DNA from: Lentisphaeria bacterium
Lineage (GTDB): Bacteria > Verrucomicrobiota > Lentisphaeria > Victivallales > Victivallaceae
Reading direction: 5' to 3'
Assembly (NCBI GenBank): GCA_017505415.1
Contig: JAFVPG010000347.1
Coordinates: 1-32,362 of the forward strand
Length of the DNA stretch: 32,362 nt
The notes below the pieces were generated by a model. That model saw nothing but the letters and a program-made list of their open reading frames with translations. It was not told the origin of the DNA and did no database searches. The translations under genes and the position numbers were made by a program. This document shows, piece by piece, positions 9,710 to 32,286 of this stretch; position 1 is the first letter of the stretch, and every line of letters starts with the position of its first letter.

Positions 9710-9780
9710 AAGAGAATTCTTCAGTTATCTTCAGCTGAATGGTTGCTGTAATAAATTTATAGAAAGGTTTGTTAATTAAA

Positions 9781-11760
9781 ATGAGTAAATGGTTGGCTTT
9801 TTTGAATGGCGTGATCGTTGGTCCCTTCACTCAGGATAAAATTGAAAACATGTTCCATAACGGCGAAATAAGCGCCACAGATAAAATAAGTCGTGAAGGT
9901 GAACTTTTCTGGAAAACAATAAGTGATTTCCCCGAATTGCAGCATCTGGTAATACAGCAGGATAATTATTTCACTGCCGCTGACCCTGCTCCTCCTGCCG
10001 AACCGCATGGCGGTAAAAAAAATCTCAGCACTCTCTATTTCGGCAAAAAAGATGCAAATTCAAATACGCCTGCTGTTGCAATCGAACAGTCACTTAATGG
10101 CAGCGAAGTTCATTTCCGTTGTCCATACTGCCGTCAGAAATATATGCTTGATGCAGAAGAATTCAACGGACAGAGTGTTGATTGTCCCGGATGCAGTAAA
10201 GCATTTATACTGCAGAAAGAATTTGAACAGGATATGCCGGTTATGGAAGATTTTCCGGAATCTCCGGTCGCTCAAGAATCATTTCCTGCAGTTGAAAACG
10301 TGGATTTCACAGAAGATATTCCGGAGGGCGATATTACCTGCCCGCATTGCTGGAAGACTTTTTCAAAAGAAAACATCTGTTATATTTCAACTCATCCCGA
10401 TCTCATCGGCGATTCTATTGTCGGAGAATTTGAACAGAAACGTTTTGTTCCAACCGTTTATCATTCAAGCGGTCTGCCGCTGGATGCCAAAGGCATGCCA
10501 TGTACAGACATTGCCTGTCCGCACTGCCATCTGCGCATTCCTGCCTCCATTGTCGATCTGTCATCATTATATGTTTCCATTGCCGGGGCGCCGTCATCAG
10601 GTAAATCATATTTTCTGACTTCACTTGTTCATACCCTCCGCAGTACAATGCCAGTCAATAATTTTTCATTCTATGATGTTGATCCTATCATCAACAGTGT
10701 TCTGAATGATTATGAAGAGAAACTTTTTATGGCAATTGATTCAGATTCAGTCACTCTGCTGCCGAAAACTCAACAGACCGGAACTGAATATTCAAACCGT
10801 ATCGTTAAAAACAATATGGCTCTGGATTTGCCTAAACCCTTCATTTTCCGTCTTCAATCAATCAGCGCTTCCTCAAACGGAGAGATGACGGACCGCAATC
10901 TTATTTTCTACGACAATGCCGGTGAACATTTTCAACCGGGGGCAGATACAATAAACAACCCTGCTACCATACATCTCGCTCACTCCGATTCAATCGTTTT
11001 CATATTCGACCCCGTAAACGATGCCAATATGCGCAAAGAGTGCGACAAGCGGGACCCCCAGCTGGAAAATACAACTAAAGTAAACGACCAGACTACTCTT
11101 TTTGCTGAAATGGTCAACCGCATCCGCCGCCATGGCAACTTCAACATAAACGAAAGCTGCGATATTCCTCTTATCATCGCTGTCAATAAATATGACACTT
11201 GGAAGCAAAAATTGCCGAAAGATGTTGAAAATATCTCATTTTTCTGCGAAAATCAGGAAGACTTCACAACTGAACTCAATATGAATGCAATTCTTGACGT
11301 TTCCTTTGCCTTGCGTGAACTTATGCAGAGTGCCGCTCCGGCATTGGTTGCACAGGCAGAAGCATTCTTCAAACGGGTATTTTTCATACCGGTCAGCAGT
11401 TTCGGCTGTCTTGCCTGCAAAGATTCAATGGGCAATATCGGTATTATTCCCTCAAAAATCAAGCCGATTCTGGTAGATTTGCCGGTTTCTCTGCTGCTGG
11501 GCGAGAAAGGCATCATGCCCTGCAACAATACAAAACCGTCAGTTTCCGCATCACCTCTTGTTTGTAAAATCATTGATAACCAAATCGTTTTCAAACATCC
11601 GGTCAGTGGCAGACGTGTCTCCCTGCCTCCCATGTATTCAGAAGCCGTCCTTGAAATAGGCGGCAAAATATATAAAATGCCGCATCTTGCGGAAAATACT
11701 GCTGCTGCGAATGAAGTATTTTCTCCATCCGGCGGTTCAAAATCATCTGTTTGGGAGTAA
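9781..11760 (+). CDS. GYF_2 / zinc-ribbon / TRAFAC-like GTPase
   Basis: This 659-residue soluble protein combines three modules. Residues 2-52 (KWLAFLNGVIVGPFTQDKIENM) form a GYF_2 domain with its GPF core. Two zinc-ribbon regions follow: CPYC (114-117) with CPGC (about 134-137), and CPHC (187-190) with CPHC (246-249). A P-loop GTPase domain then has G1 GAPSSGKS (269-276), G3 DNAG (378-381) and G4 NKYD (469-472); NKxD indicates guanine specificity. The domain resembles TRAFAC-type GTPases of predicted bacterial conflict systems. A TTG at 9769 is in frame, but the ATG at 9781 is preferred although its AGAAAGG site is 13 bases away. It starts a ten-gene array and the next gene encodes a GTPase-associated (GAP1-like) protein, so it is probably the regulatory switch of the locus. 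Its target is unknown. Confidence 0.85.
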   Translation: MSKWLAFLNGVIVGPFTQDKIENMFHNGEISATDKISREGELFWKTISDFPELQHLVIQQDNYFTAADPAPPAEPHGGKKNLSTLYFGKKDANSNTPAVAIEQSLNGSEVHFRCPYCRQKYMLDAEEFNGQSVDCPGCSKAFILQKEFEQDMPVMEDFPESPVAQESFPAVENVDFTEDIPEGDITCPHCWKTFSKENICYISTHPDLIGDSIVGEFEQKRFVPTVYHSSGLPLDAKGMPCTDIACPHCHLRIPASIVDLSSLYVSIAGAPSSGKSYFLTSLVHTLRSTMPVNNFSFYDVDPIINSVLNDYEEKLFMAIDSDSVTLLPKTQQTGTEYSNRIVKNNMALDLPKPFIFRLQSISASSNGEMTDRNLIFYDNAGEHFQPGADTINNPATIHLAHSDSIVFIFDPVNDANMRKECDKRDPQLENTTKVNDQTTLFAEMVNRIRRHGNFNINESCDIPLIIAVNKYDTWKQKLPKDVENISFFCENQEDFTTELNMNAILDVSFALRELMQSAAPALVAQAEAFFKRVFFIPVSSFGCLACKDSMGNIGIIPSKIKPILVDLPVSLLLGEKGIMPCNNTKPSVSASPLVCKIIDNQIVFKHPVSGRRVSLPPMYSEAVLEIGGKIYKMPHLAENTAAANEVFSPSGGSKSSVWE

Positions 11761-11766
11761 TAAATC

Positions 11767-14328
11767 ATGCTGGAACTCGTTTTTACATCTGCTCAAGCGG
11801 GACTTATTCCCGGCCGTTCAGGATTCTGTTCAGTAGCCTGGACCGAGGGCATGCCTAAAAATTTGGTAACGATTCTTGAAAATATGAGCGGATATAACAT
11901 ACTGTATCTGCCCAATGACGCCAGAGCGGCAAACAATCCCGTCTGCCGTTCATTTCAGAAAATACGTTACGGTTCCAGAGAATTTTCCGTTATGAGTCGG
12001 ATCGCTTTTGCCGGTCTTGATTATACCAACAGAACCAACAAAATAGCACATCATATCGTTTTTGAGAATGAAAGCGAACTCGATGAATTACAGTACGGAG
12101 CGATTTCCGCTCTGCTCTGTGATGAGAATTTCTTCACCTCATGGGATGGCCAGCCAAGACTTCTTCCCCGCCGCAAACATCTGAAATCAGCACCCGTTGA
12201 CGGATATTTTGCCGGAAAATGGCAGAAAAATACCGGTCATGCTGAATGGGCAGGACATATTGCAAATACATTCATTTACAACCTCGATGACAAAAAAAAC
12301 AATTGTCTGTATCTCGAATATGATCATGAAGCTCATGGGGCGGATATTCCGGAAATGATTTGTGAAATCGTCCGCGTCCTCCCGAAAGAATTGCATAAAG
12401 AATTTACCTTCTCCACTTACTTCTCTGCTTCATCTTCTGATTCAGCATGTTTTTTCAATGCAGTACTCCCGAATTGTTCCATACTGCCTTCAATCAAGCG
12501 TTTCAAACCGGCATTCCTCATCTCTCTGACTGCCGGAACTCCGCTTCCCGCTGTTGAAAATACTCCCTGCGTTGAATCTGCCAAAACCGGCAACGCTCCG
12601 AAATTCGGTATTGATCCCGAAGAGGAGGAAGAAGAGGTAATTTACATGGACCTCTCTGCCCAAAATACAGCAGTTGAAGAATATGAAGAGCAAGCACCGG
12701 AAGACGAAGAAGTTATTGTCGCCCAAGCTGTTCCAGCTCAGTCCGCATTCAAATTGCAAATGCCGCGCAAAATCAATCATTCCCAGAAAAAAACAAACAA
12801 AACTCATAATCATAATTCCCCAAGCCACCCTGATAATCAGCGTCAGCGCATGATGATTTTTGCCGGTGCGGCAGCACTTGTAATACTTGCGATCGTAGTT
12901 TCAATACTTCTGTCGCTGAAAATATCGGCCAGAAAAAATGCCATTGCTGAAGCATCCGCTGATAATGAAGCTCACATTTTTACCGTTCAGGAACTACGGA
13001 AAGAAAAAAAATTAAAATCTGTTAACTCTGAAAAAAAACAGAAAAAGTCAGAGCAGAAAAATAACTCAGACAGCAAAAAAACACCTTCTGATACCGGAAA
13101 AGATAAAACTACTTCCGCTCCCAAAACACCTGCCCCAAAAAAGACAGTGACTCCCCCCAAGAAAAAAGCTGTCCCTCCGCCTCCGAAAGTTAAAAAAGAA
13201 ATCAAACTTTCAACAAAAGATAAATTCATGCTGCTGAAAAATTTTAACAGCGGAGAAAAATTGAATTTGCCTTTTGAAATAAAGAAAATTGAAATCCGGA
13301 TAAAAAATGAATGGTCAGATACTGTTTCAATCAGTAACCAAAAGGATTTTATCATCATAAAAAATGCAAAAGAGATCCATGTAATGCCGGTTGATATAAA
13401 TGCTTTCCCGCTGGCTCCGCGCAATGATGGTACCGGAGTTATGAAAATCATTGCCGAAAGCAAAAGTATCATTATTGAAGAAAACAAAGCAGATGATGAT
13501 GATTATGCCCCATTCAAAGAAATCATCAGTGAATTTATTTTTTATCATGCAAACGGCGAATGCCGCTGGCAGGTAAAGTGGGACAAAAGTTTTTTAACAC
13601 ACTTGAGCAAGGGACATATTAAAATAGACAATACGAACAGTATGAAATATGAAACGTCTGAAGATGAAGAATTATTTCTCAAATATATTGAATTTGAAAA
13701 TAATTCTTTTTCAGAATTCAACGATTTGAAAGAATGGGATACAAATGCACCTTATGTAAAAAATGCAATAAAATCAGGCAAAACTCCGTTCAAAGCAGAT
13801 ATTGATTTTATTTCAGACAAATATGATACAATCAAAGCCGGATTGCAAATTGCTGATGCAGCAAAAATCAATTTTAAACAACTGAAAAAAGAATTTGATA
13901 TTTTTTACAAACATTTACTCGCTGTTGATAATACAAAATTATCCAAAAAACTTAAACTGGATGCAAATTCTATGCTGACAGAAATCTATAATTTGTGGAA
14001 AACAAAAATGACCGAACGGGAAGGAAAATTCGGCGGAGATCAGCAAATCAAAGATGATATTAACAATACTTGTAAATTACATGAAAAGCTGTTGAATAAT
14101 TTTGAATCAGACAGAAAAAAACAGAATGAAGTCAACAAATTAGAGAGAAAAATAAATCGGCAGAAAAAAATGCAGGAAGATTTGAAAAAAGCTTTCAAAA
14201 AATATGAATTACCTGCAAAATTCTCAAAAATTTTAGAAAATTATGATTCTTTCTCTCAAGACGAGAGAGAAGAATTATGTAAGGAATTGGAGAAAAAAAT
14301 AATCAGAAAAGCCAAAGGGACAAGATAA
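11767..14328 (+). CDS. GAP1-N2-like membrane protein, GTPase partner
   Basis: The 853-residue protein opens with LELVFTSAQAGLIPGRSGFC, then VAWTEGMPKNLVTILENMSGY, which resembles the N-terminal domain (GAP1-N2 type) of GTPase-associated proteins found next to TRAFAC-like GTPases in predicted conflict systems. That region spans about residues 1-280. An acidic linker (about 285-315, with EEEEEEVIYMDL) and a basic linker precede one transmembrane helix (about 361-385). Beyond it lies a lysine/proline-rich stretch (about 430-480) containing AVPPPPKVKK, then a C-terminal domain ending in coiled coil. N-in topology places the GAP1-like part in the cytosol and the rest in the periplasm. It starts six bases after the GTPase gene. 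The domain call is by remembered pattern, not by a profile search. Confidence 0.68.
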   Translation: MLELVFTSAQAGLIPGRSGFCSVAWTEGMPKNLVTILENMSGYNILYLPNDARAANNPVCRSFQKIRYGSREFSVMSRIAFAGLDYTNRTNKIAHHIVFENESELDELQYGAISALLCDENFFTSWDGQPRLLPRRKHLKSAPVDGYFAGKWQKNTGHAEWAGHIANTFIYNLDDKKNNCLYLEYDHEAHGADIPEMICEIVRVLPKELHKEFTFSTYFSASSSDSACFFNAVLPNCSILPSIKRFKPAFLISLTAGTPLPAVENTPCVESAKTGNAPKFGIDPEEEEEEVIYMDLSAQNTAVEEYEEQAPEDEEVIVAQAVPAQSAFKLQMPRKINHSQKKTNKTHNHNSPSHPDNQRQRMMIFAGAAALVILAIVVSILLSLKISARKNAIAEASADNEAHIFTVQELRKEKKLKSVNSEKKQKKSEQKNNSDSKKTPSDTGKDKTTSAPKTPAPKKTVTPPKKKAVPPPPKVKKEIKLSTKDKFMLLKNFNSGEKLNLPFEIKKIEIRIKNEWSDTVSISNQKDFIIIKNAKEIHVMPVDINAFPLAPRNDGTGVMKIIAESKSIIIEENKADDDDYAPFKEIISEFIFYHANGECRWQVKWDKSFLTHLSKGHIKIDNTNSMKYETSEDEELFLKYIEFENNSFSEFNDLKEWDTNAPYVKNAIKSGKTPFKADIDFISDKYDTIKAGLQIADAAKINFKQLKKEFDIFYKHLLAVDNTKLSKKLKLDANSMLTEIYNLWKTKMTEREGKFGGDQQIKDDINNTCKLHEKLLNNFESDRKKQNEVNKLERKINRQKKMQEDLKKAFKKYELPAKFSKILENYDSFSQDEREELCKELEKKIIRKAKGTR

Positions 14329-14329
14329 T

Positions 14330-17300
14330 ATGGCTAAAATAAATGATATGATGAATGAAATCGAACAGCTCCTCAGCTGTAACGATTTAAGTAATAATCC
14401 GCACAGCAAAAAACTTGCCTCTGATTATGCCGCAATATGCCGTGACCTTAACAATGATTTGCGGGAGTGCAAAAGCCTTTTTCAAATGGGAGCATACGCT
14501 GAAGCAAGACGATTGAATAGCCGCAGTAAACCTCCTTTCACAGAACGGTTCCGCATCCTCAATTTTTCAGGACGTGACGAATGGATACGTTTATGCAATA
14601 TGTATTCATGGGACGTGCCGCCCGCACTCGACAGTGATACTGTAAGACAGCTCAATGAAAGCGGTGACCGGAAAGAAATTTCTATTGAAGAACTCCAAAA
14701 TCAATGGCGCAGGATAATCCGGGACGGCTCAGTTCGGGAAAAATTGATTCTTGCGCGGAAAATATATGCTATCGACAAATCTTCCGTCTGGAAATCAAAT
14801 CTGCTCAATATTGAGCGTACATGGGTCAATATGCTCAAAAAATCCGCCGAAAATGCTTTCAATGAAAAACGCATTGAAGAGCTGATTGAAATTTGCAATG
14901 AATTGAAATCTCCGGAACTCCTGCAGCCACAGCCTGAATCTTTTTTTGATAAGTATCAGAACGATATAAACGCATTCAAACGCTCAAAAACAGATGAGAA
15001 AAAAAATATACTGCTTGACGAAATCGCCGCAGATTATATGGCTCTTGACCTTGACAGTCTGGAAAAATCATTGGAAAAATGGGGCAATATGCAGGAAGAC
15101 CCCTTTTTCAGCGCCAGCAAAGAAGAGGAAAAACAGGTCAATGATGCCCGCAATTTCCTGCTGGAGAAACTCGCAGAACGCAACGCCAAAGAGGAATTCA
15201 GCCGTTTGCAGAGTCAACTGGAAATGCTGTTGAATGAAAACGGTGATCCCGAGGAGATCAACAAAGTTTATCATTCTTTGCAGCAGTTTGACAAGCCGAT
15301 AAAAAAACTGCTCGAAAACCGCATGGCTGAATTTTATGAAATGATGGAACTGGAAAGAAAACGCAAACATGTCCGCAGTTGTGTTTCATGGGGCGTTTCC
15401 GCTCTGGTTATTGCAATTGGTGTTTTTGCGACAGTACTGTATTTTCAGGCAGAAAAAGAACTGCGTGATGCCTGCGCAAGCATGCAGAAACACATCAAGG
15501 AAAATAATTACAGTCTCGCTCTCGAATTTTATAAATCAGTTCAGAAAAAAAGCTCTTCCATTGCCAATAAAGCCGCTTTGAAAGCTCTTCATGAAGAAGC
15601 TCAGAAAATGTATTCTGATGCCGTCATCGCAGAAAAAGAATTTACTGAAAAATGCGAACTGCTGGAAAAAAAATATTTCAATGATGAAAACATTCTGCAT
15701 CCTGCCGTCAGCAAAATCATGACCGAACTTGAAGAGCTTGCAGCAATCCTGCCCATTGAGAAAAAAAATATCAGAAGTCAGCTTCAGGTAAAATATGAAA
15801 ATCTCAAAACTGCAAAAATTGCTGCTAATGAAATCAAATTCCGCAATGAAATACTTAAACTGCAAAAAGAGTGGACCAATCTTTTCAACTCTTTCAACAA
15901 AGTCCCCGCACACGATAATTTGAAGAAAAAAAATATTCTTGAACGCAGAGGTACTGCATTGTTGAATGAATACAAATCTAAAATCTCTGCTGAATTATAT
16001 GCTGAATGGGAGAAAAACCTTGCTGACAACACTGTTTCTTTCGGAAAATATCAGAAAAACCGTGAAGAGATGATGAGCAAAACAAAAAATCTTTATCAGC
16101 CTGTTTCAGCAGAACAATATTTCCTCGCTTTGCGAGGTGATGTAAATATTTCATCTGAAACCGCAAATGATTTCAATAAAGCTCTGCGCCAGCTCGTTAT
16201 AGATGAACCGATCTTCCGTATCATCAACAATGTCTATGATGAAACGAAACTGAATGCAATAGCCAATCAGTATACTGCAAATCCTTTCTGCCGTGAATTG
16301 AACCGCAGAAATAAAGCTGCTCACAATACTGCTGCATTCCGCAGCAATCAGAAAAATATATTTGATTCATACAAAAAGCTTATCATGCCGCAGCATGCGG
16401 TAAAAGAAATAGTATTGTATGACAAAAATCAACAGTATCACTTTTATTTCAATAATCCCGACAAAGATATTGATATTGAAAAAACATGGGACAACAAAAA
16501 AATAAAATCTTTGCAGTTTTTCTTTCTGCACAGTGCAAATAATATCAAACACTCAGCTGTATTCAAGGTCAATGATGAAAAAATTGCAGAAAAAATCGCA
16601 GAGTTGAAAAAGGAACATGCACAAAAAAACAGTTCTCTCAAAAAGAAAAACAGAAAACAATTCGTTCCTCCTCCTGCTAACGAATTGTTTAAATATCTTG
16701 AATTCATATTTATGCCGAATCAGAAATACGGAACTCTGCCGTCAAAAATGATGTTGAAAGATTATGAAGTTCTGTCCGACCTGACCAAACTCCGTACCGC
16801 CGCACAAAATACTGTTTTACAGGCAACTGCAGACAACTTGCAAAAAGGCGATATTGTTTTGATCCTTAAATCAATTATCCGTGTTGCAGAAGATAATACA
16901 ATCACCAACATTTATGCAAAAGTCAATATCATCCGCGCCATGCTCGCTTTCCTGCCGCAGGACAAGCAATGGATTTATCATAATTCATTACAGCCGCTGA
17001 ATGAACTTCTGAGAAAATATTCAGCCGGAGAACGTGCATGGTGGCAGAATCCGGCCGCATCATTCAAATATCCTGAAGATAAAGTGAATTTCCCGAAAGA
17101 ATTCTCTAAACTTGATTTGAGAAAAATATTTGCCGGAATTATATTGAGTGAAAAACTTTCCCATGTGATCTGTAAATATCCTCCGCTTCCATGCGGTATA
17201 TTTTTCCGGGAAGGCAACTTCTGGAGACTGCATTCATTTCAGTTCAATTTGACGGATTACAACACTTTGTTCATCGTATCATCCGCGGCAAATCCGCAGG

Positions 17301-17563
17301 ATAACAAAATGCATGCCTTTTCTGCCATTGATTTTGTAAAGCCTGTTCCGCAGGAAAAATTGCCGCAAGATATTGCATCCGAACTTTATAATGGGCAGCT
17401 TGTTTACTTTGTCTCTTCTCTTGATTCCTGGAAACTCGGTTTCAAATCTGCAATAGAAGAATTGAAGAAAGAAAACTTTTCCGTTCCCGAAAATGCAGAT
17501 GGTATTGTATGGCCGGAATACTGGCCTCAAAACAAAAGAAATTTCAAGGAGTTGATGAATTGA
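14330..17563 (+). CDS. Large bitopic coiled-coil protein, unknown function
   Basis: I do not recognise this 1077-residue protein as a family. It has a mostly helical, charged N-terminal part (1-345), one transmembrane helix at about 350-370 (SWGVSALVIAIGVFATVLYF), and about 700 further residues. Of these, 370-560 are rich in E/K heptads and probably coiled coil, and the last ~350 residues look globular with many aromatics. No catalytic motif or signal peptide is visible. With N-in topology the long C-terminal part would be in the periplasm, as in its neighbours. It starts one base after the upstream stop. Its own TGA overlaps the TTG start of the protease gene, so production of the two is probably coupled. 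It may be a scaffold spanning the envelope. Confidence 0.75.
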   Translation: MAKINDMMNEIEQLLSCNDLSNNPHSKKLASDYAAICRDLNNDLRECKSLFQMGAYAEARRLNSRSKPPFTERFRILNFSGRDEWIRLCNMYSWDVPPALDSDTVRQLNESGDRKEISIEELQNQWRRIIRDGSVREKLILARKIYAIDKSSVWKSNLLNIERTWVNMLKKSAENAFNEKRIEELIEICNELKSPELLQPQPESFFDKYQNDINAFKRSKTDEKKNILLDEIAADYMALDLDSLEKSLEKWGNMQEDPFFSASKEEEKQVNDARNFLLEKLAERNAKEEFSRLQSQLEMLLNENGDPEEINKVYHSLQQFDKPIKKLLENRMAEFYEMMELERKRKHVRSCVSWGVSALVIAIGVFATVLYFQAEKELRDACASMQKHIKENNYSLALEFYKSVQKKSSSIANKAALKALHEEAQKMYSDAVIAEKEFTEKCELLEKKYFNDENILHPAVSKIMTELEELAAILPIEKKNIRSQLQVKYENLKTAKIAANEIKFRNEILKLQKEWTNLFNSFNKVPAHDNLKKKNILERRGTALLNEYKSKISAELYAEWEKNLADNTVSFGKYQKNREEMMSKTKNLYQPVSAEQYFLALRGDVNISSETANDFNKALRQLVIDEPIFRIINNVYDETKLNAIANQYTANPFCRELNRRNKAAHNTAAFRSNQKNIFDSYKKLIMPQHAVKEIVLYDKNQQYHFYFNNPDKDIDIEKTWDNKKIKSLQFFFLHSANNIKHSAVFKVNDEKIAEKIAELKKEHAQKNSSLKKKNRKQFVPPPANELFKYLEFIFMPNQKYGTLPSKMMLKDYEVLSDLTKLRTAAQNTVLQATADNLQKGDIVLILKSIIRVAEDNTITNIYAKVNIIRAMLAFLPQDKQWIYHNSLQPLNELLRKYSAGERAWWQNPAASFKYPEDKVNFPKEFSKLDLRKIFAGIILSEKLSHVICKYPPLPCGIFFREGNFWRLHSFQFNLTDYNTLFIVSSAANPQDNKMHAFSAIDFVKPVPQEKLPQDIASELYNGQLVYFVSSLDSWKLGFKSAIEELKKENFSVPENADGIVWPEYWPQNKRNFKELMN

Positions 17564-18783
17564 ATCAGCAAAGATTTTTTTATCTGAAACAGCAAAACCG
17601 CATATACGGCCCGTTTCCGGCTGCTAAAATACTGGCAATGTACCGGAGCAAAACATTATCTGCGGCAGATCAAATTTCTCCTGACAAAATAAATTGGAAA
17701 AATGTCAATGATTTTTTCAATCCGCCACGTCCGAAAGTACAGAAAATACAGCCGGTTCAGACAGTTGCCGTGTACAATAATGATCCCCGGAATACTTATG
17801 TTACAGCCGCACCTGCTGTTCCATCAGAAAAAAAGATAGAATATATCAAAGTCACTCCTGTTCCCCAGGCGCATCCTGTTCAGCAAAAGGCTTCTTCCGG
17901 AATGCTGATCATGATATTTGTCCTGTTTTTCCTGCTTGTAACAGCGGGAGGAATTTTCTTTTATTTCGCAGGTCAAAAAGATTCAGGAAATTCATCCGGC
18001 AAAACAAGTGACTCATGGACATCTGTTATTGAAAAAAATAAACATGCAGTCGCACTTGTCGTACTGAATGTCACCTTGAAAAACGGAACCATTCACAAAA
18101 TTCCCATGGGAACAGCATGGGCTTTTGCAGATAATACTTTTGCCACCAACGCTCATGTGATTCAGGGAGTCCATAAAAACGGCATTGAACTCCTCAAACA
18201 ACATTCTGATATTATTTCAGATATGGAAATATCTCTTATTCTGAATGAAACAAAAACTTCTTATCCGGTAAAATCATTCCGGGTGCATCCGGAATATGAT
18301 ACTGCCAAAGATGCAGATTTCGCACTTCTTTATACTGACAAAGTAACTCATAAACTGCAAATTGCCGATGACAGAGAATTGCATAATATCAAGCAGGGAA
18401 CTCCGATCGCATTTCTCGGCTTCCCGATGGAGGGATTGTCAAACGGCAATGTCAATACCGCTAACCCGATGGCTTCTCTGCAAACCGGCAATATCGTTGC
18501 CATATCTAACGCAGAATACGGCGACAGCGGTTTTGCAGGAAACACTACAATACGGCACAATCTGCCGACTGTCGGCGGCGCCAGCGGCAGTCCGATCTTC
18601 AACAGAAACGGCAAGGTTATAGCAATCCTGTTTGCCGGTCACATGAAAATTGAATTCGATAAATCCGGCAGAATGGTCAGAACCCCAATGGCAGCAATGA
18701 TAAACTTCGGTATCAGAATCGACCGTATGAAACAATGCTTCAATGCCAAAGAAATTTCAACCGCAAATCTATGGACCCGCTGA
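17560..18783 (+). CDS. GYF_2-TM-trypsin-like serine protease
   Basis: This 407-residue protein has an N-terminal GYF_2 domain (about 2-50, FFYLKQQNRIYGPFPAAKIL), a proline-rich linker, a transmembrane helix (about 115-137) and a C-terminal trypsin/HtrA-like protease domain (about 150-395). The catalytic triad is visible: His199 in ATNAHV, Asp253 in DADFALL and Ser342 in GGASGSPIF. The protease should face the periplasm with GYF_2 in the cytosol. The start is a TTG at 17560, inferred because AAGGAG lies eight bases upstream and homology to GYF_2 begins there; this TTG overlaps the previous stop codon as TTGA. No PDZ domain is seen, so it is not a standard DegP. It is the only clear hydrolase in the locus besides the GTPase and a likely effector or signal-cutting component. 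Confidence 0.85.
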   Translation: MNQQRFFYLKQQNRIYGPFPAAKILAMYRSKTLSAADQISPDKINWKNVNDFFNPPRPKVQKIQPVQTVAVYNNDPRNTYVTAAPAVPSEKKIEYIKVTPVPQAHPVQQKASSGMLIMIFVLFFLLVTAGGIFFYFAGQKDSGNSSGKTSDSWTSVIEKNKHAVALVVLNVTLKNGTIHKIPMGTAWAFADNTFATNAHVIQGVHKNGIELLKQHSDIISDMEISLILNETKTSYPVKSFRVHPEYDTAKDADFALLYTDKVTHKLQIADDRELHNIKQGTPIAFLGFPMEGLSNGNVNTANPMASLQTGNIVAISNAEYGDSGFAGNTTIRHNLPTVGGASGSPIFNRNGKVIAILFAGHMKIEFDKSGRMVRTPMAAMINFGIRIDRMKQCFNAKEISTANLWTR

Positions 18784-18786
18784 TAT

Positions 18787-19758
18787 ATGTCAAAATTTTA
18801 TTACATAAAAAGAAATGATAATATAACTGGACCATTCTCTGAAATACAGTTGAAAAATATGTTTGTAAAAAACATTCTTGACAATAATACTCTTATTTCT
18901 GACGATCGCATAAAATGGTCTACTTTCTCCTCCGTTTTTGTCCCGAAAGAACCGGAAACTGTTTATATGGAACTGCCGGTAAAACCGGTAGTTGAAGAAC
19001 CTGCCACAGTCTATCTTGAGCTGCCGCCAAATAAAAAAGAAATAATTCAGGAAGAAGAGGAAATAACAGAGGAAGATGTTCCTGAAGAAGAGGAAAACGC
19101 AGAACCGGAAGATGATGTCATGCCGGATGTCATACCGGATCCGGTTTATATTACTTTCAGCATGATATGGAATGCCCCTGCTTATATACGCAACATGCAT
19201 TACATGTACAGCTTGGAGGAGAGCCGCAGCAGTGCGATGAAATTTACATTATCAGTCATATCATTGTCAGTTGTGCTGGAAATTTTTGTCTGCGGAATGC
19301 TTTTCTTTTTTGCCGACAGAAATTTATGTATTGCCGGTATAACTTCAATTTTTTTGACTGCGGTTATGGCAATTCTGATACTGTTGTTGGAAAATCTCTG
19401 TATTACCTCAATAGTCAAATATGAAAAAATGCTGAATCATTTTCAGCTGTTCATGCAGATAAATCTTTTCGCTTTTTCTGCATTCGTCTGCGGCATGCCG
19501 CTGGCAGGGCTTGCGGCTGCCAATACAGCAGTATCTCCGGCATTGAAAGCTGTATGTATTGCTTATGCCGCACTGACCGGCACTGCATGTATGATAAATA
19601 TGGGGGCAGGAATCGTTCATGTTTCCAAAAAATTTTTCAAAATGCACAATTTCAGCAGTATTTTTGCAGCGATATTGAATATTGTTCTATGGTTTTTAAT
19701 GCTTCTTACCGGATGTAAAATCACAGAATTTCTGAAAAATGCACTTTTTGAAAAATGA
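18787..19758 (+). CDS. GYF_2 multi-pass membrane protein
   Basis: The 323-residue protein begins with a third GYF_2 domain (about 2-52, FYYIKRNDNITGPFSEIQLK). It continues with a highly acidic linker (about 55-120) and ends in about five transmembrane helices (152-323), a layout reminiscent of Yip1/DUF-type bacterial membrane proteins. In the linker a short motif occurs twice, TVYMELP and TVYLELP, and a similar IYMDL is present in the GAP1-like protein. No catalytic residues are evident. It starts three bases after the protease gene. It may hold the cytosolic complex at the membrane through its GYF_2 domain. Function is inferred from context only. Confidence 0.75.
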   Translation: MSKFYYIKRNDNITGPFSEIQLKNMFVKNILDNNTLISDDRIKWSTFSSVFVPKEPETVYMELPVKPVVEEPATVYLELPPNKKEIIQEEEEITEEDVPEEEENAEPEDDVMPDVIPDPVYITFSMIWNAPAYIRNMHYMYSLEESRSSAMKFTLSVISLSVVLEIFVCGMLFFFADRNLCIAGITSIFLTAVMAILILLLENLCITSIVKYEKMLNHFQLFMQINLFAFSAFVCGMPLAGLAAANTAVSPALKAVCIAYAALTGTACMINMGAGIVHVSKKFFKMHNFSSIFAAILNIVLWFLMLLTGCKITEFLKNALFEK

Positions 19759-19762
19759 TTTC

Positions 19763-19791
19763 TTGACAAGGTGATAATACAGGATTAAATT
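19763..19791 (+). promoter_or_regulatory. Candidate internal promoter before the ExbB-like gene
   Basis: A perfect TTGACA (19763-19768) and TAAATT (19786-19791, four of six) are separated by 17 bases. They lie in the only sizeable gap of the locus (65 bases), just before the channel gene, which has a GGGAG ribosome-binding site. The ExbB/ExbD/vWA half could therefore be transcribed separately. Confidence 0.5.
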
Positions 19792-19823
19792 AAAAAATAT
19801 TAAAAAATAACAGGGAGTAAAAA

Positions 19824-20687
19824 ATGGAATACGGAAAAAAACTTTCATGGGTACAGTCTGACATTGAAAATATTTGCGGATTCAACAGCAAAAAGTTTAC
19901 ACGTGTCAATATTGTTTTCGCCTTTATCATCGGACTTTTGCTGACTGCACTTTTTTACGGGGTTTTATTTCCGTTCAGAGGCAGAGGTTTTCAGATGATC
20001 GACATGTTTTTTCACGGCGGAGCAGAAAACAGATCTTCAATTCCGTATTATACAGTTTTTCTCGCAATGTTTTCATTCGCCATATTGTTCCTTAAAAACA
20101 TGAAACTCAAAGTTCAGCAGAAGGCTCTCAAAGTCAACATTATGCCAATAGACAGCAGTTTTTCACTCACCCCGGTCACTGCCCGTGAAATACTTGATAC
20201 AATGTATGAAAAAGTCGATATTCCTGCCAGATTCATACTTTTCGACCGTGTTGAGCGGGCAATTTCCAATCTGAAAAACCTCGGCAGTGTTTCTGCCGTT
20301 GCCGAATGTCTGACCAACCAGGCAAATAATGATGACAATTATCTTTCAAGTTCATACACTATTTTGAAAGGTTTTATCTGGGCGATACCGGTTCTCGGTT
20401 TTATTGGAACGGTTATCGGTCTTGCCGATGCTGTCGGCGGCTTCGGCAAAGTCGTTTCTGAAGGTGCGGATATTGAACAGCTCAAAGCATCCCTCGGCGG
20501 AGTGACCGGAGGTCTTGCTACCGCATTTGAAACCACACTTATTGCCCTTGTCCTTGCAATGTTTGTCCAGCTTTTCATGACTTTCACTTTGAACAAAGAA
20601 GAATTGTTCCTCGATGATTGCGCAGATTATTGCCACCGCAACATCATTTCAAAAATGAAAACCATCAACCTTCAGGATGAAGAATGA
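19824..20687 (+). CDS. MotA/TolQ/ExbB-family proton channel protein
   Basis: The 287-residue protein has four hydrophobic segments (about 29-50, 72-94, 179-205 and 231-256). The signature IPVLGFIGTVIGLADAVGG, followed by GGVTGGLATAFETTLIALVLAM, is the MotA/TolQ/ExbB core, including the pore-lining threonines in GTV and FETT. This family forms pentamers around an ExbD/MotB-type dimer and uses ion flow to do mechanical work in the envelope. The large loop between helices 2 and 3 is cytosolic in the family. Its last codons overlap the next gene by four bases (ATGA), and two ExbD/MotB-like genes follow, so a complete motor module is present. The family is clear; the ion used is not. Confidence 0.88.
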   Translation: MEYGKKLSWVQSDIENICGFNSKKFTRVNIVFAFIIGLLLTALFYGVLFPFRGRGFQMIDMFFHGGAENRSSIPYYTVFLAMFSFAILFLKNMKLKVQQKALKVNIMPIDSSFSLTPVTAREILDTMYEKVDIPARFILFDRVERAISNLKNLGSVSAVAECLTNQANNDDNYLSSSYTILKGFIWAIPVLGFIGTVIGLADAVGGFGKVVSEGADIEQLKASLGGVTGGLATAFETTLIALVLAMFVQLFMTFTLNKEELFLDDCADYCHRNIISKMKTINLQDEE

Positions 20688-21547
20688 GCAAAAAAGACGA
20701 TTCTCCTGCAATCTCACTTTTTTCCTTTCAGGATATTATCACCTCCATTACAGGTATCATGTTTCTGGTGGTGCTGCTTTTGCTCCTCCTGATTTTTGAG
20801 GGGACTCCCGTCAAAACTCCGCCAAAACAGTCCGCTGAAGATAAACAGGAAATGCAAAAAATGGCTGAAGAGATAAAAAAAATCAGCGGGGAAATACAAA
20901 AATATAAAGAATCCAGAGAGAAACTTGTCAAACAACTGCGCGAATATCAGAAAATGCCGCTTTCAAAAATAGAAGATAGAAAAAACGAGCTTGAACAGCG
21001 TATTCAGCAGCTTACTGAAAAAAATATCAATACCAAAAATTCCATTGTTATTGCCAAACAGCAGCAGACAAAAAATATTGAAGAGATAAATCAGGCAGAA
21101 AAAGACCTCAAAGATACAGAAAAAAATATTGTCTCTGCTTCTGCTGAAAATAAAAAGAACTCTGAAAAAATCAAGGAATTGAAAAAACGTATAGAAACTG
21201 TCAAACAGACAGTCGGTTTCTCCGTAGAAGAATCTTCCGACAAAAAACCTTTGCTGGCAGAATTTACCGCAGACGGTTTCATGGTACTTGATTTCAGTAC
21301 CGACAAAGTTTATGACCTGCGTGACCGGAATGCAGATTTGAACAGCAAAGCAAAGAAATTCGTTGAGTGGGTCAAAACATGCGACAAAAATAATTATACA
21401 CTCTCAATCATTCTCGGTCCTTCAAAACTTAAATACTGGGATGCTATCTCTGAAGAACTCAGAAAAATCGGCATCACTCACGGACTGGAACTGCACCCGA
21501 AAGATGATATGAGTATTTTCTCTGCAGAAATGCGAGGTGAAAAATGA
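20684..21547 (+). CDS. ExbD/MotB-like motor protein 1
   Basis: This 287-residue protein has a short cytosolic N-terminus, one transmembrane helix (about 16-40) and a long coiled coil (about 55-175), then a periplasmic domain (about 190-287). The segment FQDIITSITGIMFLVVLLLL places an aspartate (D17) at the entry of the helix, just as the proton-carrying Asp of MotB/ExbD lies in its helix. This supports a role as the partner of the preceding ExbB-like channel. The periplasmic domain is not a recognisable OmpA-like peptidoglycan-binding domain. It overlaps both flanking genes by four bases, indicating tight coupling. Confidence 0.75.
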   Translation: MSKKDDSPAISLFSFQDIITSITGIMFLVVLLLLLLIFEGTPVKTPPKQSAEDKQEMQKMAEEIKKISGEIQKYKESREKLVKQLREYQKMPLSKIEDRKNELEQRIQQLTEKNINTKNSIVIAKQQQTKNIEEINQAEKDLKDTEKNIVSASAENKKNSEKIKELKKRIETVKQTVGFSVEESSDKKPLLAEFTADGFMVLDFSTDKVYDLRDRNADLNSKAKKFVEWVKTCDKNNYTLSIILGPSKLKYWDAISEELRKIGITHGLELHPKDDMSIFSAEMRGEK

Positions 21548-22488
21548 GCCAGAAACGCGACTTTGAATCAAGTTTGGAATTGCTGCTTGATACCATGTGC
21601 AACTCTTTCGGAGGCGTCATGTTCATTGCAATTTCTCTCATTATTGTACTTTCAATGACCTCAAAAGTCAAAGAGGCTGTCACGGATAATTTCCAGAACC
21701 TCGAAGAAATGCAGACCAAAGTTGAGGAACTCAAAAAAGAATTCACTCAAATCCAACTCGATACAAAACAGATACAGCATGCTCTCGAAATATTCAAAAA
21801 TGACCCGCGATTAAAATATCTGAAAGATATTGTTTTACTCGAAGATAAATTGAAAAAAATCGAAATGGAAGACAAAATGCTCTCCGTCGAACTTGAAGTG
21901 CAGAACAAAAAAAACAGTGAACTTGTCAATAAAAAAACTCTCATTCAAACCGAACTTACAAAAAAACAACTCAAATATCAGAAAATTGCTGCTGAAAACA
22001 TCAAACAGGAACAGGAACTCAAATCTCTCAATGAAGAACTGAAACGTACTGCTTCTGAACATATTACATTCAAAACTATGTCCCCGACGCAAAAAGCTCC
22101 CTATTACCTGATCGTTTTCAACTCGAAAATCTGGCGTGTCGGACCGGACAAAAAAGGAGATCCGCCGCACAGTGACGTAAATTATGCCAAAGCCCGACAG
22201 GATGGACAGGAATATATAATCTGCACTATCCGTGACCTCAATTCAGGAGTCCCCCTGATCGAAAACGGCAGAATATCTTCGGAGGCTTATGCTCTGCTGC
22301 AGAATATTCCTCAAGACCGCTTCCCGTCCTTAAGTATACATTCAGATTCTGTCGAAGATTTCTGCAAATTCAGAGAGGAACTTAAAAAGAATAACACCAC
22401 ACACTCTGTTGACACATTCTTTGAATCACTGGGAAATAAATTTATCTATTTCTATACAAATACGAAAGATCATTATAATGCATATTGA
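21544..22488 (+). CDS. ExbD/MotB-like motor protein 2
   Basis: This 314-residue protein is built like its upstream neighbour: a short cytosolic N-terminus, one transmembrane helix (about 17-40), a coiled coil (about 45-175) and a periplasmic C-terminal domain. ELLLDTMCNSFGGVMFIAIS carries an aspartate (D16) at nearly the same distance from the N-terminus as D17 of the first protein, consistent with a proton-carrying residue. The two proteins are clearly different in sequence, so the motor may contain a heterodimer in place of the usual ExbD homodimer. The LDTMCNxFGG style is one I associate with ExbD-like proteins of planctomycetes and relatives. The next gene starts 11 bases before this one's stop. 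Confidence 0.75.
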   Translation: MSQKRDFESSLELLLDTMCNSFGGVMFIAISLIIVLSMTSKVKEAVTDNFQNLEEMQTKVEELKKEFTQIQLDTKQIQHALEIFKNDPRLKYLKDIVLLEDKLKKIEMEDKMLSVELEVQNKKNSELVNKKTLIQTELTKKQLKYQKIAAENIKQEQELKSLNEELKRTASEHITFKTMSPTQKAPYYLIVFNSKIWRVGPDKKGDPPHSDVNYAKARQDGQEYIICTIRDLNSGVPLIENGRISSEAYALLQNIPQDRFPSLSIHSDSVEDFCKFREELKKNNTTHSVDTFFESLGNKFIYFYTNTKDHYNAY

Positions 22489-23569
22489 TAAATTCAAAAA
22501 AAATCCTTACCTTGCGGCAGCAGTTTTTTTTCTGATACTGTTCTGCTCATCTCTGCTTTTCGCACTTGCCGTAAAAATTAAAATCACCCCGGAACCTGAC
22601 GGCTTCGGAGACGGCAAAGGGCCGAATATTTTCGGCAAAGGCGGCGACGGCAATGGAACAGGAGACGGAAGCGGAGACGGATCGCATTCCGGAAGTTTCA
22701 AAGGAGTCGGAGACTCCGAAGGAAACGGCAAATCCTCCGGCGATAGTAAAAAAGATTCAGAATTGAAAAACGAAAATACCGCAAAAAATCAAAAAGGTCA
22801 GAAAAATTCCGCCCCTGAAAGCAAAACTGACGGCAAAGATTCTGAAAATGCTGACAACTCAAAACAATCTGAAACTCCTAAAATACAAAAACTCAGAGGC
22901 GCCAAAATATATGCAGATTCTGACAAAGCTAAAAAAGTAAAGAAAAAAAAAGAAACAGAGATTGATCTTGACGACTCCGCAGAGCAAGGCAGCAAAGGCT
23001 TCACCTCCGGAGGCAGAAGTGTTTTCCGTATCAAAAGAAACAAAAATATCCTCTTTATCGTTGATATTTCCCCGTCAATGGATGCTGAAACCGCAGAAAG
23101 ACTCACCCGCATTACCATTTTGAAAGATCAACTCATACATACGATAAAAAAGCTTAACAAAGAAAAATCAAAAGGCTTGTACAGCATTCTCGCATTCAGC
23201 AGTAATTGTTATTCATATCCCGATAAAAAAAGCAGTAAACAACTGAAATTCTCCTCTGCCGCAGATATAAATTCCACAGAAAAATGGATCAGTCAAATGG
23301 AAAAATTACCACGCGCAGGGACTTACCTTTACAAGGCAATTTCAACTGCTCTGACAATGATCAATCAAAACGGTATAAAAGTGGATATAATATTCATTCT
23401 CACCGACGGAGAACCGAATGACGAACATCAAACTGATGTGTATTTAAAATTGCTGAGCAGAGAATTACCGGAAAATATAGTTATCAACACTATTTCAATC
23501 GGAACTTCTTCTCCGCTTTTGCAGGAGATAGCCAAACAGCATAAAGGCAAATATGACGAATATAAATAA
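22478..23569 (+). CDS. TonB-like anchored vWA-domain protein
   Basis: The 363-residue protein has a basic N-terminus and a single signal-anchor helix (about 9-32). A glycine/aspartate/serine-rich region (about 40-90) and a charged linker (to about 175) follow, then a von Willebrand factor A domain (about 190-363). The MIDAS metal site is complete: DISPS (D196, S198, S200), T282 and D310 in TDGEP. The layout of helix, flexible linker and C-terminal binding domain, placed right after ExbB/ExbD genes, is that of TonB/TolA, with vWA replacing the usual C-terminal domain. The start ATG at 22478 overlaps the previous gene; an upstream in-frame ATG lies deep inside it and is less likely. It probably binds a partner protein in the periplasm in a metal-dependent way. 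Confidence 0.8.
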   Translation: MHIDKFKKNPYLAAAVFFLILFCSSLLFALAVKIKITPEPDGFGDGKGPNIFGKGGDGNGTGDGSGDGSHSGSFKGVGDSEGNGKSSGDSKKDSELKNENTAKNQKGQKNSAPESKTDGKDSENADNSKQSETPKIQKLRGAKIYADSDKAKKVKKKKETEIDLDDSAEQGSKGFTSGGRSVFRIKRNKNILFIVDISPSMDAETAERLTRITILKDQLIHTIKKLNKEKSKGLYSILAFSSNCYSYPDKKSSKQLKFSSAADINSTEKWISQMEKLPRAGTYLYKAISTALTMINQNGIKVDIIFILTDGEPNDEHQTDVYLKLLSRELPENIVINTISIGTSSPLLQEIAKQHKGKYDEYK

Positions 23570-23583
23570 TGAAAGGATATATT

Positions 23584-24387
23584 ATGAAAAAAATTTGTAA
23601 AATGCTTAAAACCGTACTCTTCGCAGCAGTATGTATGACTGTTTTGCCTGCTTCGGCAGAGTTTAGTTACAAAGATTGAGTCGTGCCTTTTTACTCCACC
23701 CAGCGCATTGCACTCACTTTCATGGGCAAAGAGGAAATTTTCAAATTCAGTTCAAAAAAAGTTACCTGGCGGAATAATATTAAAACTGATCTCGAAAAAG
23801 CAAAACTTTATAAATACAATTCCGACCGTGTTGACATGCTGGATGATTATCTCTTCGCTATTTCAGAACAAAGTTCCACTGAATGGGAAGATTTTGACTC
23901 TGCCATAGATGAAATAAATACAAAATCAATTGAACCGGCTGTAAACAGAAATGACCTTATCTGGGCAATAGCAATGGCTTACAGATTGAATAACTTTTGC
24001 AAAGGCTTCATCTATAAAAAACTCAGTGATACCGATGCCGTAAAAGAAGAACTTGCCACTGTTCTCGATTCAATAAAAGAAAAAGTACGTGAACGTTATG
24101 AAGATGATGTGCTGAAAAAACTTACAGCTGAATACAAAAAACTTTTCCCGAACAGAAGACTGCTCATAGATCAATCCCTGCCGTCAAATTTTAATGCCTG
24201 TGTCAAGCTGCAGAATGAATGTCTGGCCGCCTATTTGAACTTGAACAAATATTCAGCCGCCGCAGAATTTGAAGAATGGGGCGCAAATATGCTCAACTTC
24301 CTTCTGCTTGAATATGATGTACTCTTTATCAAAGAATTTGAAACACGCCTGAAAAACTATACTGCCAATTTCAAAATAAAAAAATAA
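23584..24387 (+). pseudogene. Secreted helical protein with in-frame TGA (broken gene or readthrough)
   Basis: A gene with a strong AAAGGA site six bases before ATG 23584 encodes a clean signal peptide (MKKICKMLKTVLFAAVCM...PASA, cut after residue 25) and then EFSYKD. At codon 32 (23677-23679) there is a TGA, after which the same frame stays open for 235 codons, starting VVPFYSTQRIAL. The downstream part is helical and charged and unrecognised. A GTG at 23683 or ATG at 23710 could start the second part, but neither has a ribosome-binding site. Tryptophan (TGG) would fit the context. Explanations are a recent nonsense mutation, a base-call error, or UGA readthrough. It is the last gene of the locus and, if expressed, its product is periplasmic. 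Confidence is in the broken-frame observation, not in loss of function. Confidence 0.75.
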
Positions 24388-30504: not shown

Positions 30505-32286
30505 TCACTGCTGCTTGCCGATAACAGCTTTGATACGGCGGACACCGCGGCTGGAACTTTCTTCTTTGAGAATTCTGAATCCTTCGAGGTCGCCGGTATT
30601 ATTTGCATGGGGACCACCGCAAATTTCTTTGCTAACATCGCCCATGGTATAAACTTTTACCTTTTCGGCATATTTGCTTTCAAAAAGTCCCATTGCACCG
30701 GATTTCTGTGCATCTTCCAGATCCATCTCTTCGCAAATGACGGGCAGTTTACGTTCAATAGCTTCATTGACGAGTTTCTGAACTTCAGCGATCTGTTCCG
30801 GAGTCATTTTTTCTTCATGAGAGAAATCGAAACGCAAACGTTCAGCAGTGATGTTTGAACCTTTCTGACAAACATGATTGCCGAGGACTTTGCGCAAAGC
30901 AGCCTGCAGCAGATGGGTTGCAGTATGAAGTTTGGCAGTTTCTTCAGAGTGGTCGGCAAGACCGCCTTTGAACTTCTGTTCTGCGCCCTGACGTGAAAGA
31001 GCCTGATGTTTTTCATAAGCCGCTTTATAACCTTCCATATCAACAGTAAATCCCTTTTCTGCTGCCATTTCAGCAGTTAATTCAACGGGGAAACCGTAAG
31101 TTTCATAGAGGAAGAAAGCATTTTTTCCGGAGATGACTTTTTTGACAACGTGAGCAGGGACACGGGCAATAAGTTTTTCAAATTCACGAGTACCTTTTTC
31201 AAGAGCTTCTTCAAAAGTTTTCTCTTCACGGCTGAGTTCATCAAGAATCTTGGCTTCATTATTTTTGAGTTCAGGATAGACATCTCCGAGCTGATCAATA
31301 TAAACTTTAGCGATTCTGGCGCAGAAGTTGCCTTCGATATTAAGATTTCTGCCGTTCTTGATAGCACGGCGGATGAGGCGGCGCAGGACATAAGGCTGAT
31401 CGACTTTGCCGGGAGTGATACCGTCAGCAATAATGAAAGTTGCGGCACGCAGGTGGTCGGCAATGATACGTTCTGAAGCAGTGCGTTCTGCAGGAGCAGT
31501 ACGATTCAAAATTGCATCGATCTCAGCAAAAACAGGAGCGAAAATCTCTGTTTCATAGCAGCTTTTTTTGCCTTGAAGAATAGCAGTGACACGTTCCAAT
31601 CCCATACCGGTATCAACATTTTTCTGCTTGGAGAGTTCATATTTGCCGTCAGCATTTTTGTAATACTGCATGAAAACGTCGTTCCAGATCTCTACCCAGC
31701 GTTTGTCAGCGGGATCAAAAACTGCAGGAGCTTCACCGCCGCCGGTCCAGTAAAACATTTCAGTATCAGGACCGCAGGGACCGGTCTGACCGGCAGGGCC
31801 CCACCAGTTGTCTTTTTTGGGAAGTTTGGCAATACGGTCAGGAGAGACTCCGAGACTCTGCCACAAATCGTATGCCTCCTGATCGAAAGGCGCATCTTCA
31901 TCACCTGCAAAAACGGTGAATGCAAGCATATTCAACGGAATATTAAGATTGTCTTTGCCGGTCAGAAATTCAAAACTGAAGCGTATGGCATCTTCTTTGA
32001 AATAATCTCCGAGTGACCAGTTGCCGAGCATTTCAAAAAAGGTCAGATGTACGGGATCGCCGACTTCATCAATATCTCCGGTACGGATGCATTTTTGAAA
32101 GTCTGTCAAACGGGTGCCGAGCGGATGTTTTTCTCCGCTCAGATAAGGAACGAGCGGATGCATACCGGCAGTGGTAAAAAGACATGTCGGGTCATTATCA
32201 GGAATAAGAGATGAACTTTTGATTTCCTTGTGACCTTTGGAAACAAAAAAATCAATGTACTTTTTGCGAATATCAGCTGCTTTCAT
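30505..32286 (-). CDS. alaS: Alanyl-tRNA synthetase, short form without C-Ala domain
   Basis: The 593-residue protein charges tRNA(Ala) with alanine. The catalytic core is complete: FTTAGMHPLVPYL, QKCIRTGDIDEVG, FFEMLGNWSLGDYFK, TGPCGPDTE and DTGMGLERV. The tRNA-recognition helices follow. The editing domain is also complete, with zinc ligands H454/H458 (HTATH) and C556/H560 (CGGPH). The protein stops about 30 residues after this motif, whereas common bacterial AlaRS runs to about 875 residues with a C-terminal oligomerisation/tRNA-binding C-Ala domain. The stop is not a frame break in a longer gene that I can see, since STAS starts 14 bases later. The ATG at 32286 has AAAGGA upstream. Confidence 0.95.
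   Translation of the reverse strand: MKAADIRKKYIDFFVSKGHKEIKSSSLIPDNDPTCLFTTAGMHPLVPYLSGEKHPLGTRLTDFQKCIRTGDIDEVGDPVHLTFFEMLGNWSLGDYFKEDAIRFSFEFLTGKDNLNIPLNMLAFTVFAGDEDAPFDQEAYDLWQSLGVSPDRIAKLPKKDNWWGPAGQTGPCGPDTEMFYWTGGGEAPAVFDPADKRWVEIWNDVFMQYYKNADGKYELSKQKNVDTGMGLERVTAILQGKKSCYETEIFAPVFAEIDAILNRTAPAERTASERIIADHLRAATFIIADGITPGKVDQPYVLRRLIRRAIKNGRNLNIEGNFCARIAKVYIDQLGDVYPELKNNEAKILDELSREEKTFEEALEKGTREFEKLIARVPAHVVKKVISGKNAFFLYETYGFPVELTAEMAAEKGFTVDMEGYKAAYEKHQALSRQGAEQKFKGGLADHSEETAKLHTATHLLQAALRKVLGNHVCQKGSNITAERLRFDFSHEEKMTPEQIAEVQKLVNEAIERKLPVICEEMDLEDAQKSGAMGLFESKYAEKVKVYTMGDVSKEICGGPHANNTGDLEGFRILKEESSSRGVRRIKAVIGKQQ

Follow-up and report, generated by a model that had tools for sequence, protein, structure and literature searches.

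The last gene of a ten-gene operon-like run (positions 9769–24387) carries an in-frame TGA directly after its signal peptide, and the question it raises is whether this codon is read as an amino acid, ends translation as usual, or is an error of the assembly. All coordinates refer to the window, by which we mean the whole 32,362-nucleotide stretch of DNA that was analysed, and all features lie on the + strand unless stated otherwise. The gene starts with ATG at 23584, about 10 nt downstream of the Shine-Dalgarno-like motif AAAGGA (23573–23580). The predicted signal peptide, MKKICKMLKTVLFAAVCMTVLPASA (23584–23658), has an n-region, a hydrophobic core and an AxA site, and the TGA is codon 32 (23677–23679). 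The remainder of the gene (23680–24387) is intact, with 235 sense codons in the same frame before a TAA at 24385–24387. An earlier, sequence-only reading had described the ribosome-binding site, the signal peptide, the TGA and the 235 open codons, and each was found at the position it gave. Codon log-odds after the TGA were 0.49 per codon in the gene’s frame, versus -0.12 and -0.17 in the other two + frames, and the value of 0.49 falls inside the span of 25 other window genes (0.25–0.56). GC3 of the post-TGA frame was 0.37, with window genes at 0.35–0.47. The open frame downstream of the TGA is coding and did not arise by chance. A search for a second stop or a frameshift in the broken frame found neither which, together with the full coding signal, argues against long decay of the gene. 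In-frame starts downstream of the TGA are GTG 23683, ATG 23722 and ATG 23836; a Shine-Dalgarno-like motif was sought before each and found at none, in agreement with the earlier statement that the later starts lack ribosome-binding sites.

A direct protein search of genome contigs for close relatives of the broken protein gave no match. Relatives of the locus were reached instead through the MotA-like neighbour, which is up to 81% identical in them, and 20 syntenic loci were retrieved. The relatives of the window genome are Lentisphaerae / Victivallales, nearly all of them metagenome-assembled genomes (MAGs), plus the cultured Victivallis vadensis. The nearest homologue is an intact 268-aa gene of the related Lentisphaerae MAG isolate SIG90 (contig SUWE01000049.1; L034/L054; L034:269-1075), which occupies the same operon slot, after the vWA gene, and aligns with the window frame from signal peptide to C-terminus at about 29–30% identity (E about 5e-33). 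Another 14 intact but more distant homologues were found in Victivallales, including that of V. vadensis (L055), whose gene directly precedes the DO-GTPase gene. When a profile was searched against 137 genomes of the order, 16 family members were recovered, of which 15 lacked an internal stop and the window copy was the sole broken one. The broken gene is a single real, formerly intact gene. In two genomes, those of the window and of L034, the family member closes the operon at its 3′ end, and in most others (L035, L036, L041-L043, L045-L047, L057, L060, L062-L065 and L067) it lies directly upstream of the DO-GTPase gene, encodes 318–394 aa and has an extra N-terminal region.

The TGA is very probably an ordinary nonsense codon, which either reflects a wrong or minority-strain base in the MAG consensus or arose in this strain by a recent inactivating point mutation. 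The observations behind this reading are the identity of the gene, the intact state of all 15 other homologues, the unconserved site, and the absence from the sequence examined of any machinery for selenocysteine or suppression; we infer normal termination at 23677–23679 and a recent break. If the TGA is real, translation would end six residues past the signal peptide, and the gene would yield no functional secreted product. The real-allele version would be a recent, private loss of the operon’s secreted component in one strain, which would then live without that component of a GAP1-N2-type operon. Three interpretations had been offered earlier, a recent break, a base-call error or readthrough; the first two stand, with homologues intact, the frame undecayed, and a second isolated nonsense codon in the same fragmented MAG, and the third found no support.

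That second codon came from a survey of the window genome, a 403-contig MAG that is 84.5% complete. Predicted proteins of the same-genus genome G002 were aligned to 0.42 Mb of the window genome, about 34,000 codons, and one further clear isolated in-frame stop was seen: mutS has a TAG in place of the highly conserved Gln of GKSTYIRQ, its Walker A segment. This mutS (L115, G000:C126, about 3905, - strand) is 75% identical over 840 residues to the same-genus copy. Other survey rows, with several stops each, were overlapping antisense reading frames or similar-looking. No frameshift breaks were seen in the roughly 34,000 codons surveyed, and the reverse comparison, of the window genome against G002, gave no isolated stop in G002. 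The mutS TAG, a single event, shows that genes of this assembly which are otherwise good can carry an isolated nonsense codon, be it a consensus error or a true mutation. If the mutS TAG is real, the strain would be mismatch-repair-deficient; a base error is as likely there, because no homopolymer frameshifts were seen. Since the other window genes that were scanned all appear unbroken, errors are not frequent. For related MAGs of the SIG series, record titles state assembly coverage of only about 2–6x.

The alternative that survives best, though we consider it improbable, is that ribosomes terminate at TGA 23677 and re-initiate at GTG 23683, so that the mature domain would be made in the cytosol. 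The GTG lies one codon past the TGA, near enough for termination-coupled restart, and the domain is whole from this codon onward. No Shine-Dalgarno motif precedes the GTG, however, and no relative carries the stop. The N-terminus of the homologues is signal peptide-like and runs straight on into the domain, and a cytosolic form would therefore be outside the protein’s normal compartment.

Still less probable is programmed or leaky UGA readthrough giving a small amount of full-length secreted protein. The intact, coding downstream frame, free of frameshifts and second stops, fits with this proposal, as does the placement of the stop directly after the signal peptide, where the readthrough product would be secreted. 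But the 15 other homologues all lack a stop at the site. In a readthrough gene the stop and both of its flanks are expected to be conserved in relatives, and here no other family member has the stop. The TGA column is in a divergent linker, at which the SIG90 homologue has Ser in one alignment and Met in another. Aligning homologues for a Trp or Cys at this position, a check proposed in the sequence-only reading, showed neither to be conserved, and the idea that a TGG tryptophan would fit the site found no support in them. Around and downstream of the TGA the mRNA showed no stable hairpin or other structure, its folds being no more stable than those of shuffled sequences (z about +0.3 to +1.1). 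ARAGORN read 37 of the 40 tRNAs found, and none of the 37 had a stop-reading anticodon (UCA, CUA or UUA); RF2 is intact and RF1 is present. A suppressor tRNA was rejected on this tRNA set, in a genome about 85% complete. The unconserved site, the stop-free relatives, the tRNAs and RF2 likewise disfavor the earlier proposal that readthrough supplies a minor secreted share of a component that is costly or toxic. A form of this proposal in which the TGA is real and low-level readthrough lets translation termination throttle export of the operon protein in a single lineage is slightly less probable again.

Reassignment of the code was rejected for the same genome, about 85% complete, which has an intact RF2 and uses TGA as a regular stop, at the end of 13 of the 25 window genes and of 27 of the roughly 60 genes sampled from the genome. 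The earlier reading, from the window alone, had likewise taken TGA to be a normal stop. Stop usage differs between the two same-genus genomes. In G002 (contigs L127-L186), TGA ends 3 of 65 genes and TAG 12 of 65, whereas in the window genome (G000; contigs L107-L126 and L187-L206) TAG ends 1 of about 60 genes, with TGA at the 27 of about 60 given above.

It is highly improbable that the locus comprises two genes, one for a 31-residue exported peptide and the other a separate cytosolic gene: the stub is by itself a full signal peptide, AxA site included, but both parts form one continuous frame in the closest relative and the second part lacks a usable start signal. Selenocysteine insertion has a negligible probability and was rejected (genome about 85% complete), since beyond the in-frame UGA that the window gene shares with selenoproteins it differs from them on every point examined: SelB scored under the curated cut-off in the window genome and 20 relatives, a cut-off that 2 of 14 control genomes passed; no tRNA-Sec match in the window genome exceeded the cut-off, and the matches that ARAGORN read were ordinary tRNAs, mostly Ser, Gly, Arg and Cys; no SECIS-like hairpin was found after the UGA; and the homologues have no conserved Cys at the position. 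The search for selenocysteine machinery that had been suggested earlier thus came out negative. When homologues are intact and recoding machinery is absent, an in-frame stop in a single MAG should not be taken as recoding.

The operon upstream of the broken gene begins with a DO-GTPase2 protein with a GYF_2 domain and a zinc ribbon, the latter under its curated cut-off (9769–11760). It continues with a GAP1-N2 / GAP1-M protein (11767–14328), a 1077-aa protein that is kept in syntenic relatives and has no Pfam family (14330–17563), a trypsin-like protease (17560–18783), of which a longer version from 17509 gives a weak GYF match, and a protein with transmembrane helices and a GYF_2-like N-terminus (18787–19758; Pfam E = 0.0002, under the curated cut-off). 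A MotA/TolQ/ExbB-like channel subunit (19824–20687; PF01618) comes next, then two single-TM coiled-coil proteins (20684–21547 and 21544–22488), each a possible MotB/ExbD-like partner by position, sequence and conserved synteny, and a von Willebrand factor A (vWA) domain protein (22478–23569; PF00092). For the DO-GTPase and the GAP1 protein with its N2 domain, Pfam scores were 34.9 bits for PF19993 (cut-off 27), 66.9 bits for PF20013 (24) and 27.5 bits for PF20014 (24). Systematic decay of the operon was rejected: measured against homologues, its other genes are open from end to end, and both the trypsin and the vWA domain are recognised by their Pfam models. Traced by its strongly conserved MotA-like protein, the Victivallales version of the operon was found in 25 of the family's 78 genomes. 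Elsewhere in the window, at 30505–32286, the alanyl-tRNA synthetase frame is just 593 aa long and lacks the usual C-terminal part, a shortness that may be normal for this group.

Pfam, PADLOC and PDB sequence searches with the broken protein assigned no function. Its AlphaFold2 model is mostly helical (mean pLDDT 81.8), and a fold search with the model found no relative, the best E being 0.85. From the homologues, the coding signal and the model, the remainder of the gene appears to specify a helical secreted protein of a Victivallales family tied to GAP1-N2/DO-GTPase operons. The gene encodes a predicted secreted accessory protein of a GAP1-N2/DO-GTPase-type operon, and we infer that its family is an envelope-side accessory of a membrane-associated GAP1-N2/DO-GTPase system.

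Among known cases, the window gene resembles the nonsense alleles and consensus errors of metagenome-assembled genomes, with a single in-frame stop, intact flanks, intact homologues and a fragmented assembly. One lesion in an otherwise intact frame, with homologues intact, is what such a case comprises, and we found no feature that sets the window gene apart. The operon, for its part, is a suspected bacterial conflict system of the GAP1-N2 type, judging from its domain content: a DO-GTPase gene is followed by a GAP1 gene with the N2 domain, as in GAP1-N2 systems. A literature search on the Victivallales operon type found nothing relevant. GAP1-N2 neighbourhoods in general were described by Kaur et al. 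2020 (PMC7159879) as including a DO-GTPase with GYF and zinc ribbon, GAP1-N2/M, GYF with trypsin or a TM protein, and vWA, and planctomycete versions with GYF/trypsin/TM proteins were noted there. The window operon has these same elements of the GTPase-centric conflict systems; for an FNIII-repeat component, no Pfam match was found among the ten operon proteins scanned. Unlike the systems of that paper, in whose main text neither ‘MotA’ nor ‘ExbB’ occurs, the Victivallales operons also carry a MotA/ExbB-like protein and two single-TM coiled-coil proteins. These three proteins may assemble into a proton-driven unit like that of Zorya; ZorA matches were weak (PADLOC E about 1e-5).
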